The notes under the pieces are model-generated. The model made no database searches and was not told where the DNA came from. It saw only the letters and a list, made by a program, of their open reading frames with translations. Below, piece after piece: positions 45,798 to 51,397 of a DNA stretch of 64,000 nt. The position numbers and the translations under genes were made by a program. Positions within the stretch are counted from its first letter, which is position 1; the number at the start of each line of letters is the position of its first letter. The DNA comes from Candidatus Saccharimonadota bacterium (GTDB lineage: Bacteria; Patescibacteriota; Saccharimonadia; Saccharimonadales; Saccharimonadaceae), in contig JAAXIO010000021.1 of NCBI GenBank assembly GCA_012270305.1, forward strand, positions 40,970 to 104,969, read 5' to 3'.

Positions 45798-45890
45798 TCA
45801 TTATACGGGTCGAGCAAACGCATCAAGGTCGTATTCACCCCTGAATACGATTTTTTCTTTTAATTACTGTATTCAAGGGGAATCTCCACC
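45798..45890 (+). promoter_or_regulatory. repeated leader element, copy 1
   Basis: A conserved block from TCATTATACGGGT to GGGGAATCTCCA shared with 46656-46754. Core hairpin CCCCTGAATAC (45838-45848) pairs with GTATTC-A-AGGGG (45869-45880) with one bulged A, around the conserved loop tract ATTTTTTCTTTTAATT. It precedes SD AAAGGAGG and the gene at 45954. Confidence 0.6.
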
Positions 45891-45953
45891 TGTTACACAT
45901 TTGCCATGCGACCCCGTCAGCAGACTCCGTTACGTAAAGTAAAGGAGGAAGAA

Positions 45954-46253
45954 ATGACTAGCGTAGCTCAAGCAACACAAACCGAAACCACCGGATACCA
46001 AGGGTGGAGTAATTACGAGACGTGGCTCATCAACCACTGGCTCACGAACGATGAGAGCTACTACAAGCAGCTTCAACTCATCGTCTCGTCACACAGTGGC
46101 GTGCAAGATCAAGCCGAAGCCCTGCATGAGTGGCTACAGCTTGAACACGAAGAACTAGAGATCACTAATCTCTGGAGCGACATCGTGGGCAGCACTCTCT
46201 GTCGGACAAACTACCAAGAGATTGTTGAAGCCAATGTGGAGGAGACGCTATGA
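45954..46253 (+). CDS. DUF7249-like NYETW protein
   Basis: 99 aa from ATG 45954 (SD AAAGGAGG). GYQGWSNYETWLINHWLTND is the signature of a small family found on phages and plasmids. The rest is helical (LQLIVSSHSGVQDQAEALHEWLQLE). Function unknown. ATGA overlap with the next gene. Supports the plasmid-like nature of this part of the element. Confidence 0.7.
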   Translation: MTSVAQATQTETTGYQGWSNYETWLINHWLTNDESYYKQLQLIVSSHSGVQDQAEALHEWLQLEHEELEITNLWSDIVGSTLCRTNYQEIVEANVEETL

Positions 46254-46531
46254 GCGTCTCTCCATCTCCCCAGAGCATAGAAAAGTGCCGCAAGTTCTGG
46301 GCGAACGTGGCGAAGAAGAATGGCTGGTATAAAGAGCCGTTCTACGTACAGGTATGGGCAGATAGCCGCGGTGAAATTACCGATAGCGTGTCCTTTGACG
46401 GTCTTCAAGAAGACATTGTGGAACTTATCGGTGACTTTGCACACTGTGCATCGTGCGATATTGTTATCGATCTCGACTTCGATAAGTGGTACTGCGATGA
46501 CTACAACACCTACTGCGACAACTGCCAGTAG
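46250..46531 (+). CDS. small Cys-rich protein, unknown
   Basis: 93 aa. EKCRKFWANVAKKNGWYKEPFYVQVWADSRGEI, then a C-terminal cluster HCASCDI and WYCDDYNTYCDNCQ that could bind zinc. Overlaps the NYETW gene by 4 nt. Its stop is followed after 4 nt by an RNA pseudoknot element. No family recognised. Confidence 0.65.
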   Translation: MSVSPSPQSIEKCRKFWANVAKKNGWYKEPFYVQVWADSRGEITDSVSFDGLQEDIVELIGDFAHCASCDIVIDLDFDKWYCDDYNTYCDNCQ

Positions 46532-46535
46532 TTCA

Positions 46536-46562
46536 CGTCCTGAGCATGACGCTAAACTGCTC
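46536..46562 (+). ncRNA. 3' pseudoknot element, copy a
   Basis: Stem CGTC (46536-46539) with GACG (46548-46551). Loop bases GAGCA (46542-46546) pair with TGCTC (46558-46562) downstream, giving an H-type pseudoknot. Copies at 47396 and 47937 keep both helices with different loop bases. Confidence 0.65.
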
Positions 46563-46655
46563 CTATAGTCATGCTATACGGAATATCGGAAGTATTACGA
46601 GGTTGTTCTGCAAATATCAGTGAGACTATGTAAGAGTCTTCCTCCCTCTGTCTCT

Positions 46656-46754
46656 TCATTATACGGGTGAACCAAAACAATCAAGGTAGTATTCACCCCT
46701 AAGATATAAATCATTTTTTCTTTTAATTGAATATCTTAAGGGGAATCTCCAGCC
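46656..46754 (+). promoter_or_regulatory. repeated leader element, copy 2
   Basis: Same block order as 45798-45890. Core stem CCCCTAAGATAT (46696-46707) pairs with ATATCTT-A-AGGGG (46731-46743), the same bulged A and loop tract but different stem bases than copy 1, i.e. compensatory changes. It lies ~75 nt before the DUF3768 gene. The rest of 46563-46830 holds no gene. Confidence 0.6.
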
Positions 46755-46830
46755 TTGACAGTTTTGGTGTCATCCCGAGCCCTTCTGACAGAGAGGGAGA
46801 AAGCCCTCTCGTTAAGCAAAGGAGGGTCTT

Positions 46831-47169
46831 ATGGACACCGAAGAAAGAATACAAATCGAAACAGCAGCAAAGATTGCTGCTCTCAACGACGCAGCCAGGA
46901 GCAACGCTGCGAACTATATGGCGACAAGGGGCATTATGTCTCTAAAACCAGAAGTTATCTCAGATATCTTTATTGGTGTACAGGGGTTCACGGACTTCAC
47001 TGAAGGTAATGACCCCTACGGTGAGCATGATTTTGGCTCACTCAAGGTAGACGGCAATAAAGTCTTCTGGAAAATAGATTACTACACCAAAGACTTATCC
47101 GGAGGGTGTGATCCACTCGATCCGGAGTGTCGGCGGGTGCTGACCATTATGTTAGCCGAGGAGTACTAG
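46831..47169 (+). CDS. DUF3768-family protein
   Basis: 112 aa, SD AAAGGAGGG. NDPYGEHDFGSLKVDGNKVFWKIDYYTKDLSGGCDPLDPECRRVLTIMLAEEY matches the DUF3768 core (DFG...FWKIDYYD...SPDPADP...RVLTIMLAxEY). Common on plasmids and mobile elements; function unknown. Ends at a strong terminator. Confidence 0.85.
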   Translation: MDTEERIQIETAAKIAALNDAARSNAANYMATRGIMSLKPEVISDIFIGVQGFTDFTEGNDPYGEHDFGSLKVDGNKVFWKIDYYTKDLSGGCDPLDPECRRVLTIMLAEEY

Positions 47170-47183
47170 CTCCTCGGTTTTTT
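47156..47183 (+). terminator. intrinsic terminator after the DUF3768 gene
   Basis: CCGAGGAG-TACTAG-CTCCTCGG followed by TTTTTT. The stem includes the gene's last codons. Confidence 0.92.
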
Positions 47184-47220
47184 AGTTCAGCAATAAATTG
47201 TAAACCCAAGGAGGTATGAC

Positions 47221-47391
47221 ATGGAAGTTCAAACACTTGACCGCGAGGAATTGGAAAAAGTAGCACTCATGGCAGTGTGTGCCTGCAACTACTACGACCT
47301 TGCAGACAATATCGACATTACGACTGATGAGGAGCTTTGGCAAATCATCGACAACCGAGATGCCGAATGCGAGAACTGCAAAGAGCAGTAA
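47221..47391 (+). CDS. 56-aa acidic protein with two Cys pairs, unknown
   Basis: ATG 47221 with SD AAGGAGG; ends TAA 47391. MEVQTLDREELEKVAL, then VCACNYYDLADNIDITTDEELW and CENCKEQ (CxC and CxxC). The C-terminal CxxC end resembles the DNCQ end of the 46250-46531 product, so the two may be distant relatives. A pseudoknot element follows 4 nt after the stop. Confidence 0.65.
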   Translation: MEVQTLDREELEKVALMAVCACNYYDLADNIDITTDEELWQIIDNRDAECENCKEQ

Positions 47392-47395
47392 CTCA

Positions 47396-47424
47396 CGGTC
47401 CTAGGCAAGACGGGAAACTGCCTA
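47396..47424 (+). ncRNA. 3' pseudoknot element, copy b
   Basis: Stem CG(g)TC / GACG with one bulged G. Loop TAGGCA (47402-47407) pairs with TGCCTA (47419-47424). It sits between two genes, ~30 nt before the next start. Confidence 0.65.
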
Positions 47425-47453
47425 TCAAAGTTTAATCCTAAAGGAGAAAAGAT

Positions 47454-47930
47454 ATGCACTACTTAGTGACCTTGATAGTACCAGGTGAAGACATCGCAGA
47501 AGCGAACAGCAACGCAGATTCTATAATGATGGATCTGATTGAGTGGAAAGAGTTTGATTGGTATCAAACCGAAGCGGCAGATAGCCGATGGGAAGATTGC
47601 TGGAAGCCAATCAGTTTATCCAGCAAGAAAGCACAAGCTATCGTGGCCAATACAATGCAGGGGCAACTTGAAGAGTTTAAGCAAGCACTGTCTACTATCC
47701 GAGTAATGTTGGATAAGTACAGTGACGAGCAAATATTCAATGAGGAGTTTGAGCAGGAATCTGGACACTACCTCAGCAGATGGCAGTTCTCTCGAGCATC
47801 TGGCTACCATGCGAATGCCTGTCAGCTCTTTGGCGAAGGTGGCGATTCTATCATAAGCCAGCAACAGCTTGATTGGTATTTAAAAGATGCCGAAAAACTG
47901 TGGGTTGTCCAAGTAGATTGCCACAATTAG
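47454..47930 (+). CDS. protein of unknown function (element tail)
   Basis: 158 aa, SD AAAGGAG. HYLVTLIVPGEDIAEANSNADSIMMDLIEWKEFDWYQTEA, with Trp-rich RWEDCWKPISLSSKKAQ, long helices and C-terminal EKLWVVQVDCHN. No signal or TM. No family recognised. Followed 6 nt later by the best-formed pseudoknot copy. Confidence 0.65.
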   Translation: MHYLVTLIVPGEDIAEANSNADSIMMDLIEWKEFDWYQTEAADSRWEDCWKPISLSSKKAQAIVANTMQGQLEEFKQALSTIRVMLDKYSDEQIFNEEFEQESGHYLSRWQFSRASGYHANACQLFGEGGDSIISQQQLDWYLKDAEKLWVVQVDCHN

Positions 47931-47936
47931 CCAGTC

Positions 47937-47964
47937 CGTCCTAGGCAGGACGTAAAACTGCCTA
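47937..47964 (+). ncRNA. 3' pseudoknot element, copy c
   Basis: Stem CGTCC (47937-47941) with GGACG (47948-47952). Loop TAGGCA (47942-47947) pairs with TGCCTA (47959-47964). All positions pair perfectly. Confidence 0.7.
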
Positions 47965-48548
47965 GCAAGGAAAGACTAACCACTGGCCGCACCATGTAAA
48001 CAGTCCAAGGACTATTTACATCGTCCGTCCAGTTAAACAGCAAGTATAGGCATGTCCGTACTTACCCCCTCGGACTTTACATGCGTCCCGCAGTAAAGTT
48101 CCTCGCGTGCAAGAACGAACAATGCCTCAGACGCGTCTACGCTACAACATAGATTTACTTATTGTTATCTTATTTGTCGCAAGGTACGGACAGCCGGTAC
48201 ATACTGTCCGTTGGACAGAATGTACGCAACTGCCGCACACTTGGCCAAATAAGTAGACCCCGAACGCACCGGCAAATATGACCATTACAAGCTCGTTATC
48301 ACTCACTTGCAATCGTCATATTGCCTTCATCTAATCCATACATTTAACTAGCCTGAACACTACTAATCTATTGATACTACCCTATGCATATGTTTGTATT
48401 AAAGTATTATTACGTAATCATAGTTATATTATAGTTTTATATCTGTTATTAATGTATATTATTCCAACCTTATATTTATATAAAGAGAGGAAAAGAAAAA
48501 AGAAAAAGAGTATAATAAGAATGTAAAGAGTAAGAGCAAGGAGGGCTT
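47965..48548. other. gene-free region with three long inverted repeats (candidate oriT/origin or structured RNA)
   Basis: No frame fits. IR1 (47994-48021): ATGTAAA-c-AGTCC/GGACT-a-TTTACAT, loop AA. IR2 (48072-48102): GGACTTTAC/GTAAAGTTCC with a bulge. IR3 (48197-48225): GTACAT-a-CTGTCC/GGACAG-a-ATGTAC, loop GTT. 48350-48540 is very AT-rich. Location inside a conjugative-type element between maintenance genes and the replication-relaxation gene fits an oriT or origin. Confidence 0.4.
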
Positions 48549-49370
48549 ATGAGTAAAGGCGATGACACGCCTGACAAAGCCAGGCGGCCACTCAATACGA
48601 ATCAGCTTGATACGCTTAGGTTGATTTATCGCTTTCGCTTTGTAACGACTGAGTTAATAGCTCATCGTAAAAATAAAAAGCGCGATGCCGTGACTAATGC
48701 TCACATGCGGGTCTTATACGAACAAGGCTATATAGGGCGTCACTACGATTCAAGCTACAAGCTACAAGGTAAGCATGCGGCCTATTATTTATTGCCAAAA
48801 GGACTAGCTGCACTTAAAGAAAAAGATGACTCAATTACAAGTACTAGTAAGACAATTTACAATGATCGTAAAGCCTCAGATCGCTTTATAGAACATAGCT
48901 TAGCTGTATTCTCAGTGGCTTGCACATTTCAGCGTTTATACGATGGCACAAAGCAATTTTTTGCAAAGACCGAACTAGCCACATTTGACTATTTCCCCCA
49001 ACCAATGCCTGACGGCTACTTGTCTATTAAACAGAAAAATAAACGATACCATTTCTTTGTAGACATTTACACTGAATCTACTCCAATGTTTGTGCATATA
49101 CGTACACTTAAACGATATATCACCTACGACGAGTCTGGAGAGTGGGATGTAACTGAGAGTGATTTTCCTAGCATTATGGTTATTTGCGACACCAAGAGCC
49201 TAAAAAACCGGCTCATGACACGTATTCAGAGCATATTTGAAGAAGAAGCCCCTCACTTAGTAGTATTAGCAACTACTGTAGATGAGCTGCTTAATAGTAA
49301 TGATCGTGATGATCGAATTTGGTCTCCTATAAACTCTGAGGATTTTGTTCCAAGAAAACTTCTAAAATAA
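48549..49370 (+). CDS. replication-relaxation family winged-helix protein
   Basis: 273 aa, SD AAGGAGGG. N-terminal winged helix LNTNQLDTLRLIYRFRFVTTELIAHR, RVLYEQGYIGRHYD and YYLLPKGLAAL match Replic_Relax proteins. The C-terminal part (~110-270, DRFIEHSLAVFSVACTF, FADIYTES-like FFVDIYTEST) resembles their nuclease-like domain. Family members are linked to plasmid replication or mobilisation and may be the closest thing to a mobilisation protein here. Confidence 0.8.
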   Translation: MSKGDDTPDKARRPLNTNQLDTLRLIYRFRFVTTELIAHRKNKKRDAVTNAHMRVLYEQGYIGRHYDSSYKLQGKHAAYYLLPKGLAALKEKDDSITSTSKTIYNDRKASDRFIEHSLAVFSVACTFQRLYDGTKQFFAKTELATFDYFPQPMPDGYLSIKQKNKRYHFFVDIYTESTPMFVHIRTLKRYITYDESGEWDVTESDFPSIMVICDTKSLKNRLMTRIQSIFEEEAPHLVVLATTVDELLNSNDRDDRIWSPINSEDFVPRKLLK

Positions 49371-49456: not shown

Positions 49457-49636
49457 ATGGGCAGAACGAAAGGCACTAAAAACAAGAATCCACCAGCGGT
49501 ACCAGACACCGTAAGCTTTACGACTGAACAACGTGTCGAGTTCATCGCAACCCTCATAGTTGAACGCATACTTGAAGATATTTCTAATGGAAAACCCCTC
49601 TTAAAGCAACTAGGAGGCGATCATGCCCCCGAATAG
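49457..49636 (+). CDS. 59-aa protein upstream of and overlapping the recombinase
   Basis: ATG 49457 with SD AGGAGGG; TAG 49634-49636. Basic N-terminus MGRTKGTKNKNPPAVP, then a helical part (TTEQRVEFIATLIVERILEDIS). Its 3' end overlaps the recombinase start by 14 nt, so they are translationally coupled. Position suggests a recombination directionality or regulatory partner (inference only). Confidence 0.6.
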   Translation: MGRTKGTKNKNPPAVPDTVSFTTEQRVEFIATLIVERILEDISNGKPLLKQLGGDHAPE

Positions 49637-51350
49637 CTTACCTCCAAAGCTCCGTACACTTCTCGCGGTACGAGTCTCAACACTCGGCCAGGGTATCGAT
49701 GGTGACTCGCCAGAGGCACAAATAGAACAAGGCGAGCTCTATGCACCACGGCACAATATGGAGATTGTCATGATACTCCAGTATCTTGAGTCCGCATCGA
49801 AAGAGCAACAGCCAATGCAGGAGGTTATTAACTACTGTAAAAAGCACAAAGGCGAAATAGATGTTGTGCTCATCAAATCTATTGACCGCTTTACTCGTGC
49901 TGGTTCGACTGTTTACGATCAACTCAAGGAGCAGCTTGAGCCGCTTGGTGTTATGCTCGTTGACATGTACGGGGTAATCGGTGCCCAGAAAGTAAATACC
50001 CTAGAGCACCTCGGTCAAGAGTACCGATGGAGCGTTTATTCTCCAACCCGCAAAACGGAACTTCTGGAGGCTGAACGCGCTAAAGATGAAGTACGCGACA
50101 TCTTGAGCCGTATGATTGGCTCAGAGATACGGTATACGCAGATTGGATATTGGTCGCGTGGCGCTCGATACGGCTACAAAACGAAAAAGATTGAGACCAC
50201 AAACGGCAAACGTACCATACTTACGTCAGATGGGGACAAGGCGAAGATTATCCGTATGATGTATGAGGAACGTGCAGCAGCCGTCCTTAGCGATGATGAA
50301 ATCGCTAAGAAAATGAATGATATGGGCTTTCGTACTCCTATAAAGGTTGTACGAGACAAGAAAGACCGCACGAAGATAGTAAGTCGTACTGGCAACAAGC
50401 TCATGACGGGTAAACTCCTACGCACCTATATTAAGCAGACGATCTATGCTGGCGTGAATACCGAGAAATGGACAGGAGACAAGCCTGTTAAGTGTAAGTT
50501 TGATGGTCTCGTCTCCCCCGATCTGTTTAACCAAGCAAATCGCGGCAAAGTTGTCATTCGTGATAATCCTGATGACCCCGATCATCCTATTGTCGAAGAA
50601 GCACCAAAACTAGAAAAGTTTGCCAAAAAGAATGTCTATAATGCCGATTACCCGTATCGTAAGGTAGTTATGTGCCCTCATTGCCGTAAACCGCTGCTAG
50701 GTAGTGCCTCGCGTGGCAAATTGGGTAAATACTACCCTGCCTATCACTGTAGCAACCACGGCCATTATTTCCGCGTCCGCAAGGAAGAGTTTGACAAAGT
50801 GGTTGAAGAGTTCGTACAAAGCGTTATCGTGCGTCCTGAGCGCATAGACGAGCTTGTAGGGGCTGTTACGGCTGTTTATGAGCAACGACAAGGCCAGAAG
50901 GTACAGGCCGAGGAATTAGTAGATAAACGACGCTTAGAGCTAGAGGCTGAAATCAAAGTCATTATCGACAAGATGAAGCTGATTAGCTCCGAGACTGCAA
51001 TTAAATACATGGAGGAGGACTTAGTAAAACTAGAGCAAGAAATAAAGAGCCTAGACACAAAAAGGGAGGAAGAAGCAGCCAAAGAAACCGTCGATTTGCC
51101 GACCATGTTGACATATGTCAAATACTTTATGGAACACCTCAAAGATTTGCTTATCGACCACTGTAATCCAGTCAAAAGAGCACAGTATTTTGGAGTAATT
51201 TTCGATGAGGTGGCAACTTTCCAAGAAATAAAAGATGGAACCCCAGAAATAGAAAAAATCCCAGGGGTGAACGAGCTATTTAAGCTCATCAACTCTGAGA
51301 AAGTCTCTTTGGTGCGGCGAAGAGGACTTGAACCTCCACGATCGCAATGA
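49623..51350 (+). CDS. large serine recombinase (integrase) of the element
   Basis: 575 aa, SD AGGAGG. Resolvase domain with catalytic S19 (LLAVRVSTLGQG), conserved IDRFTRAGS, recombinase domain (~150-300), zinc ribbon CPHC (C351/C354) ... YHCSNHGHYF and a coiled coil (~420-500). The last 13 codons (from GTG 51312) come from the tRNA-Leu gene (VRRRGLEPPRSQ). In the circular form the frame would continue into 20799-20951 for a 50-residue native tail. Catalyses attP x attB integration and excision. Confidence 0.93.
   Translation: MPPNSLPPKLRTLLAVRVSTLGQGIDGDSPEAQIEQGELYAPRHNMEIVMILQYLESASKEQQPMQEVINYCKKHKGEIDVVLIKSIDRFTRAGSTVYDQLKEQLEPLGVMLVDMYGVIGAQKVNTLEHLGQEYRWSVYSPTRKTELLEAERAKDEVRDILSRMIGSEIRYTQIGYWSRGARYGYKTKKIETTNGKRTILTSDGDKAKIIRMMYEERAAAVLSDDEIAKKMNDMGFRTPIKVVRDKKDRTKIVSRTGNKLMTGKLLRTYIKQTIYAGVNTEKWTGDKPVKCKFDGLVSPDLFNQANRGKVVIRDNPDDPDHPIVEEAPKLEKFAKKNVYNADYPYRKVVMCPHCRKPLLGSASRGKLGKYYPAYHCSNHGHYFRVRKEEFDKVVEEFVQSVIVRPERIDELVGAVTAVYEQRQGQKVQAEELVDKRRLELEAEIKVIIDKMKLISSETAIKYMEEDLVKLEQEIKSLDTKREEEAAKETVDLPTMLTYVKYFMEHLKDLLIDHCNPVKRAQYFGVIFDEVATFQEIKDGTPEIEKIPGVNELFKLINSEKVSLVRRRGLEPPRSQ
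51308..51315. other. right attachment site core (attR) in tRNA-Leu 3' end
   Basis: TTTGGTGC, identical to 20795-20802. It covers the CCA end and last acceptor base of tRNA-Leu(GAG), so integration leaves the tRNA intact. Confidence 0.65.
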
Positions 51351-51397
51351 TCACTAGCCCCTCAAGCTAGCGCGTCTACCAATTCCGCCACCGCCGC
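51310..51397 (-). tRNA. tRNA-Leu (GAG), integration target
   Basis: 88 nt with encoded CCA. Acceptor GCGGCGG, anticodon loop TTGAGGG gives GAG, long variable arm, T loop TTCAAGT. The recombinase C-terminus is encoded on the opposite strand over its 3' half. No terminator follows; the element has separated it from one. Confidence 0.95.

Follow-up and report, generated by a model that had tools for sequence, protein, structure and literature searches.

A widespread coremin-like pseudoknot of phages as a candidate barrier to 5'→3' mRNA decay

Exoribonuclease-resistant RNAs (xrRNAs) have so far been described as tools of eukaryotic RNA viruses against Xrn1. The Bacillus and phage 5' mRNA stabilisers (SP82 and ermC leaders), which shield downstream mRNA against 5'→3' decay, depend on purine-rich leaders or on the binding of ribosomes rather than on a conserved pseudoknot. 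The coremin motif (GUCCGAAGACGUUAAACUAC) is composed of a 4-bp CGUC/GACG stem with a YGAD or YGNNAD loop, followed by a spacer in which a C and a U are indispensable and by a further hairpin; it sits in the 3' untranslated regions (UTRs) and intergenic regions of RNA viruses, stalls Xrn1 in vitro (the form with the six-nucleotide loop YGNNAD also resists the enzyme) and slows scanning eukaryotic ribosomes, and as of 2023 its structure was described as not yet solved (PMC10520033). A flaviviral xrRNA is able to halt the bacterial RNase J1 in vitro (PMC5760640). Here we describe a 28-nt H-type pseudoknot, similar to coremin, that occurs three times (copies a, b and c) in a 64,000-nt stretch of the Candidatus Saccharimonadota contig JAAXIO010000021.1 (positions 40,970 to 104,969; "the window") and that is a widespread, previously unlisted phage RNA; no earlier report of it was found in the open literature searched (preprints not covered).

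Structure, covariation and relationship to coremin

The motif contains a 4-bp stem P1, a one-nucleotide loop L1 (C), a 6-bp stem P2 between the P1 loop and bases further 3', a one-nucleotide L2 and a third loop L3 of sequence NNAAAC. The three window copies are all on the + strand, and their P1 stems begin 4, 6 and 6 nt, respectively, past the stop codons of the open reading frames (ORFs) that precede them (Table 1), just where a preliminary description of this DNA had placed them; the P1 of copy b is slightly imperfect and not a clean CGTC/GACG. A 25-nt consensus, GTCCTRRGCANGACGNNAAACTGCY, has exactly three matches in the window, whereas 100 dinucleotide-shuffled versions contain none, even when up to 3 mismatches are tolerated. 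Between copy a and copies b and c two P2 pairs are altered on both strands (G-C to A-T and A-T to G-C) and AAACU is unchanged throughout. The preliminary description had taken this compensatory change as the mark of a conserved RNA fold and had proposed a search for further covarying copies as its test; many such copies exist, and both stems covary among them.

A descriptor that demands P1, P2, the pyrimidine and AAAC, run on 3.0 Mb of fetched loci, has 378 matches (76 of which the seed patterns had not picked up) and a single match in the reversed sequence. When the spacer and loop letters are left free, the 1/1/6 geometry of L1/L2/L3 gives 173 matches against 14–26 for nine neighbouring geometries, counts that are not natural frequencies since the loci were fetched by the motif. 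Among these 173 strict matches L1 is C in 162, each position of the AAAC spacer is retained in 159–165, and 114 have the spacer TTAAAC. When P2 and the spacer are held constant and the remaining P1 bases may vary, 92.5% of the P1 cells in 123 sequences are paired, compared with 58% (maximum 65%) for shuffled partners; when P1 is held constant, the figure for P2 cells is 90% in 158 sequences, compared with 77.5% (maximum 79.4%) after shuffling. CGTC is the commonest P1 across phages, and the alternatives to it covary. A conserved, covarying RNA fold across phages and mobile elements is thus well supported. As the preliminary description supposed, the fold is absent from Rfam (release 15), where nothing reaches the gathering threshold and a permissive threshold returns only chance-level matches (best E over the window copies 1.4). 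The match of copy b to the freshwater-2 family is one of chance, resting on an ORF-end hairpin and a Shine-Dalgarno region.

In its stem and spacer (CGUC...GACGUUAAACU) the phage and window motif matches plant-virus coremin. The phage consensus shares with coremin the stem, a Y at L1, the loop A and the spacer GUUAAACU with its essential C and U, and both are sited at gene ends or in intergenic regions and occur in tandem copies. In the window the first coremin hairpin is exact in copies a and c and reduced to 3 bp and a bulge in copy b, and the spacer agrees with that of coremin (UUAAAC, then U). The loop differs: window loops are 8 nt long (CTGAGCAT, CTAGGCAA and CTAGGCAG) and include the Y, A and D, but their position 2 is T rather than the coremin G. 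There is also no separate second hairpin, as in all three copies the bases 3' of the spacer pair into the loop to form P2. Because of these two departures we treat the window form as a pseudoknotted variant and not as a strict member of the coremin class, and its exonuclease resistance is an extrapolation. The phage motif differs further in its freer P1 sequence and in its occurrence, known here from sequence, in bacterial DNA phages and mobile elements.

The exact hexaloop form of coremin is itself present in 20 viral (phage) contigs, often soon after a stop codon, and the phage hexaloops CGAAAT and CGCAAT are among the loops tested as Xrn1-resistant (PMC10520033); tetraloop coremin was not found in the viral contigs. 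Hexaloops are found in Enterococcus phage SEsuP-1 and Lactobacillus phage JNU_P5 as well, and in one locus (L100) an octaloop and a hexaloop stand in tandem, twice. Since both forms co-occur in phages, the window form is tied to the coremin class by more than sequence likeness. The kinship is well supported, and the phage motif is very probably related in fold to the coremin xrRNAs. Other known RNAs are more distant. The flavivirus- and tombusvirus-type xrRNAs are also pseudoknots, and act as the kind of mechanical 5'→3' exonuclease block proposed below for the phage motif, but they are far larger ring folds with no sequence similarity to it; PreQ1-I riboswitches and other small H-type pseudoknots share the H-type fold and an A-rich third loop but differ in loop lengths, conserved bases and gene context, and give no Rfam match. 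We note that in L100 (- strand) the entire tandem unit is present twice, with about 1.07 kb between the two, at ~690–745 and ~1758–1815.

Distribution and gene context

The preliminary description had regarded the motif as a three-copy family of mobile elements of the Candidate Phyla Radiation; instead, it is found across phages generally. In the viral collection at least 120 contigs match a 17-base core pattern, at least 120 match with P1 and the spacer fixed and P2 free, and at least 120 match with P2 and the spacer fixed and P1 free, and the motif is also present in hundreds of environmental phage contigs. Carriers include the phages Nostoc NMeng1, Synechococcus S-EIV1 and S-CRM01, Mycobacterium Labelle, Arthrobacter Molivia, Paracoccus ParMal1, Lactobacillus phiEF-1.1, Streptococcus Javan407 and Javan384, Geobacillus GR1 and Moorella MTATph1 (33 of 33 bases matched), as well as many Staphylococcus aureus phages, and an alternative P1 (ACAC/GTGT) is found in phages Roseobacter SIO1, Lentibacter and Celeribacter. 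In the window's own family 21 of 295 genomes have the motif, only the window's genome has three copies, and the core of copy a is identical in the Saccharimonadia-family genomes G117, G035, G072, G122 and G167. No match was found in 5,426 complete Escherichia coli genomes. Several matches from genome contigs and class scans (L337, L339, L343, L353, L355 and L356) lack a paired P1 and were discounted as chance, and 27 Vibrio phage matches that lie inside or across annotated genes (E 0.3) were not counted.

The motif generally lies between genes of the same orientation. Among the 287 matches with both neighbouring genes called, the upstream gene is on the same strand in 263 and the downstream gene in 251, compared with about 73% and 74% for ordinary intergenic gaps, and this strand bias argues for a function at the RNA rather than the DNA level. 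The gap to the upstream gene has a median of 8 nt, and that to the downstream gene one of 28 nt. The order minor head protein, motif, scaffold is shared by Staphylococcus B166, Planomicrobium (L341) and another Bacilli genome (L350). Scaffold and major capsid genes are 3' of the motif in B166, L341, phiEF-1.1 and Javan407, and an Enterococcus phage has a hexaloop copy at the equivalent site, followed by a scaffold gene (phrog_172) and a capsid gene of the SU10 type. In a microvirus the motif is about 260 nt ahead of the capsid gene. Downstream proteins of the environmental loci include single-stranded DNA-binding protein (SSB) in 7 of 75 and scaffold in 3 of 75, counts that are not independent since related phages are included, and upstream proteins include DNA polymerases and ribonucleotide reductases; neither SSB nor scaffold is among the families listed for 80 control genes of the same loci. 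Synechococcus phage S-CRM01 has both an octaloop and a hexaloop form, each immediately 3' of a tRNA, and 8 of the 378 copies, compared with 5 of 1134 random stretches, lie no more than 200 nt ahead of a tRNA gene. A hairpin resembling a terminator, with a T tract, lies just 5' of the motif and the scaffold/capsid genes in Streptococcus, Lactobacillus and Enterococcus phages (L381, 1470–1530; L326, 3940–4030; L378, 1970–2020).

This context bears on whether the motif is a site recognised by a phage or host protein, or a riboswitch for a small ligand, and shares the coremin sequence by chance. The L1 C, an A-U pair and AAAC are conserved beyond the needs of pairing, as such a site would be, but the conserved letters are those required for coremin Xrn1 resistance, the hosts are from many phyla and no Rfam riboswitch matches. 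The 75 downstream proteins include no consistent pathway or metabolic gene, and the one-nucleotide L1 and L2 leave little space for a ligand pocket, so that the ligand sensor suggested in the preliminary description is unlikely and we consider this family of explanations very improbable.

Possible function as a block to 5'→3' decay

We favour, with moderate confidence, the interpretation that the motif is a mechanical roadblock to 5'→3' decay, a pseudoknotted relative of coremin that shields the mRNA downstream of it, and that the exonuclease it stops is probably RNase J. On an mRNA under attack from the 5' direction, host RNase J would degrade the upstream cistron until it ran into P1 from the 5' side, where the L3 strand and P2 would brace the stem; the enzyme would halt there and leave the downstream RNA as a stable segment. 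In phages the stoichiometric products (scaffold and capsid proteins, SSB) could in this way outlast the upstream enzyme genes, whereas at operon ends, as at copies a and c, a stable 3' UTR RNA would be left; next to the S-CRM01 tRNAs, an RNase Z cut would create a new 5' end. A site 5–6 nt past the stop codon would be about the nearest that a terminating ribosome leaves folded. The SP82/ermC-type stabilisers likewise guard downstream mRNA from 5'→3' decay, which for the phage motif is a proposal. It also counts in favour that the window's genome encodes RNase J (488 bits) and that the 5,426 E. coli genomes lack a match; among the 15 other genomes with a plausible P1, the enzyme was found in about 8. 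Three roles had been put forward in the preliminary description, and of these the anti-terminator has no support; the 3' stabiliser comes nearest, in that stabilisation is retained, but the evidence favours a 5'→3' block that protects the RNA downstream, because of the identity of the coremin stem and spacer, the co-occurrence of the hexaloop form, and the siting before scaffold and capsid genes and after tRNAs. Rho is unlikely to be the common target, because phages of cyanobacteria and streptococci, which are not known to have Rho, carry the motif.

The position of the motif relative to stop codons could instead reflect translation punctuation, in which the pseudoknot stands at the mRNA entrance of a ribosome with the stop codon in its A site and insulates cistrons by blocking post-termination sliding of 70S or 30S particles or by pausing termination. 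Matches whose first P1 pair is 5–6 nt past the stop codon are indeed the largest class, all three stop codons are used (TAA 120, TGA 37, TAG 35), and coremin also slows scanning eukaryotic ribosomes (PMC10520033). Such a role is nevertheless rather unlikely given the S-CRM01 copies immediately behind tRNA genes, the copies of crAss-like phage cr7_1, JNU_P5, Javan407 and the microvirus that are remote from annotated stops and lie in the leader of the next gene, and the 24 of 287 copies for which the gene called upstream has the opposite orientation. Stop-codon readthrough was dropped as a candidate: the frame after the stop closes a few codons on at copy a, and in or just past the motif region at copies b and c.

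In favour of a fold that marks operon ends, guarding against 3'→5' exonucleases or stopping transcription, are window copies a and c, which close gene groups, and 27 copies that precede an opposite-strand gene; at least 5 T's lie within 16 nt 3' of the motif in 39 of 378 copies, compared with 1.5% of random positions. About 90% of copies are, however, without a T tract, including all three in the window, none of which has the G+C hairpin plus U tract of an intrinsic terminator. The next gene is on the same strand in 251 of 287 cases at a median distance of 28 nt, and phiEF-1.1 and Javan407 have their separate terminator-like hairpin and T tract just 5' of the motif. We therefore regard 3' protection or termination as quite improbable.

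Several observations weigh against a block to RNase J. The sharpness of the 5–6 nt stop spacing is not predicted from decay blocking alone, the loop G and second hairpin of coremin are lacking as described above, and copies a and c have no gene near them on the 3' side. The bases of copy a can also form an alternative hairpin, AGCATGAC/GTCATGCT (46543–46576), that would undo the pseudoknot (minimum free energy -11.5 kcal/mol, z -2.6, from a folding program that models no pseudoknots), and that may be a switch or an element like the second coremin hairpin. Prophage counts are low in class samples, with 8 matches against 3 in the control for Bacilli and 3 against 6 for Gammaproteobacteria. The link to RNase J hosts is only partly clean: the enzyme was not found in about 7 of the 15 genomes with a plausible P1, all of them metagenome-assembled contigs of less than 75 kb that are possibly misbinned phage DNA, and the crAss-like phage match, whose host is presumably a member of the Bacteroidota, is a possible further exception.

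With these points considered, we lean slightly towards the broader proposal that coremin-type xrRNAs serve as RNase J decay boundaries in the polycistronic mRNAs of DNA phages and mobile elements from across bacterial phyla, a bacterial counterpart of the xrRNAs of eukaryotic RNA viruses, and that the covariation reveals a loop-spacer pseudoknot underlying the coremin fold. If so, the same mechanical trick works against bacterial 5'→3' decay, phages possess a 28-nt device that sets expression ratios within an operon, and the motif could be a portable stabiliser for bacterial mRNAs. The loop-to-spacer pairing that covaries in the phage alignment is directly testable in coremin.

Features surrounding the window copies

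Table 1. Positions of the three pseudoknots and their adjacent ORFs in the window
Feature	Position	Strand	Remarks
93-aa ORF	46250..46531	+	stop 5' of copy a; C-terminal CxxC
Pseudoknot copy a	46536..46563	+	L1 C, L2 T, L3 CTAAAC
Copy a P1	46536-46539/46548-46551	+	CGTC/GACG
Copy a P2	46541-46546/46558-46563	+	TGAGCA/TGCTCC, 5 bp
56-aa ORF	47221..47391	+	ends before copy b P1; C-terminal CxxC
Pseudoknot copy b	47396..47424	+	L1 C, L2 A, L3 GGAAAC; between two ORFs
Copy b P1	47398-47400/47409-47411	+	GTC/GAC; outer C-G pair only over bulged G
Copy b P2	47402-47407/47419-47424	+	TAGGCA/TGCCTA
158-aa ORF	47454..47930	+	between copies b and c; start codon is the first after copy b
Pseudoknot copy c	47937..47964	+	L1 C, L2 G, L3 TAAAAC
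Copy c P1	47937-47940/47949-47952	+	CGTC/GACG
Copy c P2	47942-47947/47959-47964	+	TAGGCA/TGCCTA

The ORFs that precede copies a and b (46460–46531 and 47221–47391) both close with CxxC and a few residues (CDNCQ and CENCKEQ), hinting at related C-termini; both were compared with Pfam and PHROG, in which the 93-aa ORF has no confident match. In another genome (G048, locus L007) a 158-aa ORF likewise lies between two motif copies, at 317 and 853. The arrangement is not that of a type III antitoxin RNA, with ToxI-like head-to-tail repeats beside a ToxN-type toxin, because genes separate the copies and the neighbouring proteins have no toxin match. The 3' sequence GTCATGCT of copy a recurs in the related elements L010, L011, L018 and L019. 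Between copy c and the replication-relaxation gene at 48549 are about 580 nt (47965–48548) with no convincing or called gene, a stretch that would persist as stable 3' RNA should copy c act as a 5'→3' block.

Further downstream, a large serine recombinase gene (49623–51397) overlaps the 3' end of an oppositely oriented tRNA (51313–51397), likely an attachment site; no second copy of that tRNA 3' end was found within the window. A leader of about 110 nt is present in two copies (45798–45903 and 46656–46766; repeat families D2, D3 and D6), ahead of the DUF7249 and DUF3768 genes. It contains the inverted repeats CCCCTAAGATAT/ATATCTTAAGGGG and GGGTGAA/TTCACCC, and its sequence suggests a structured 5' leader or a promoter region that has been duplicated.
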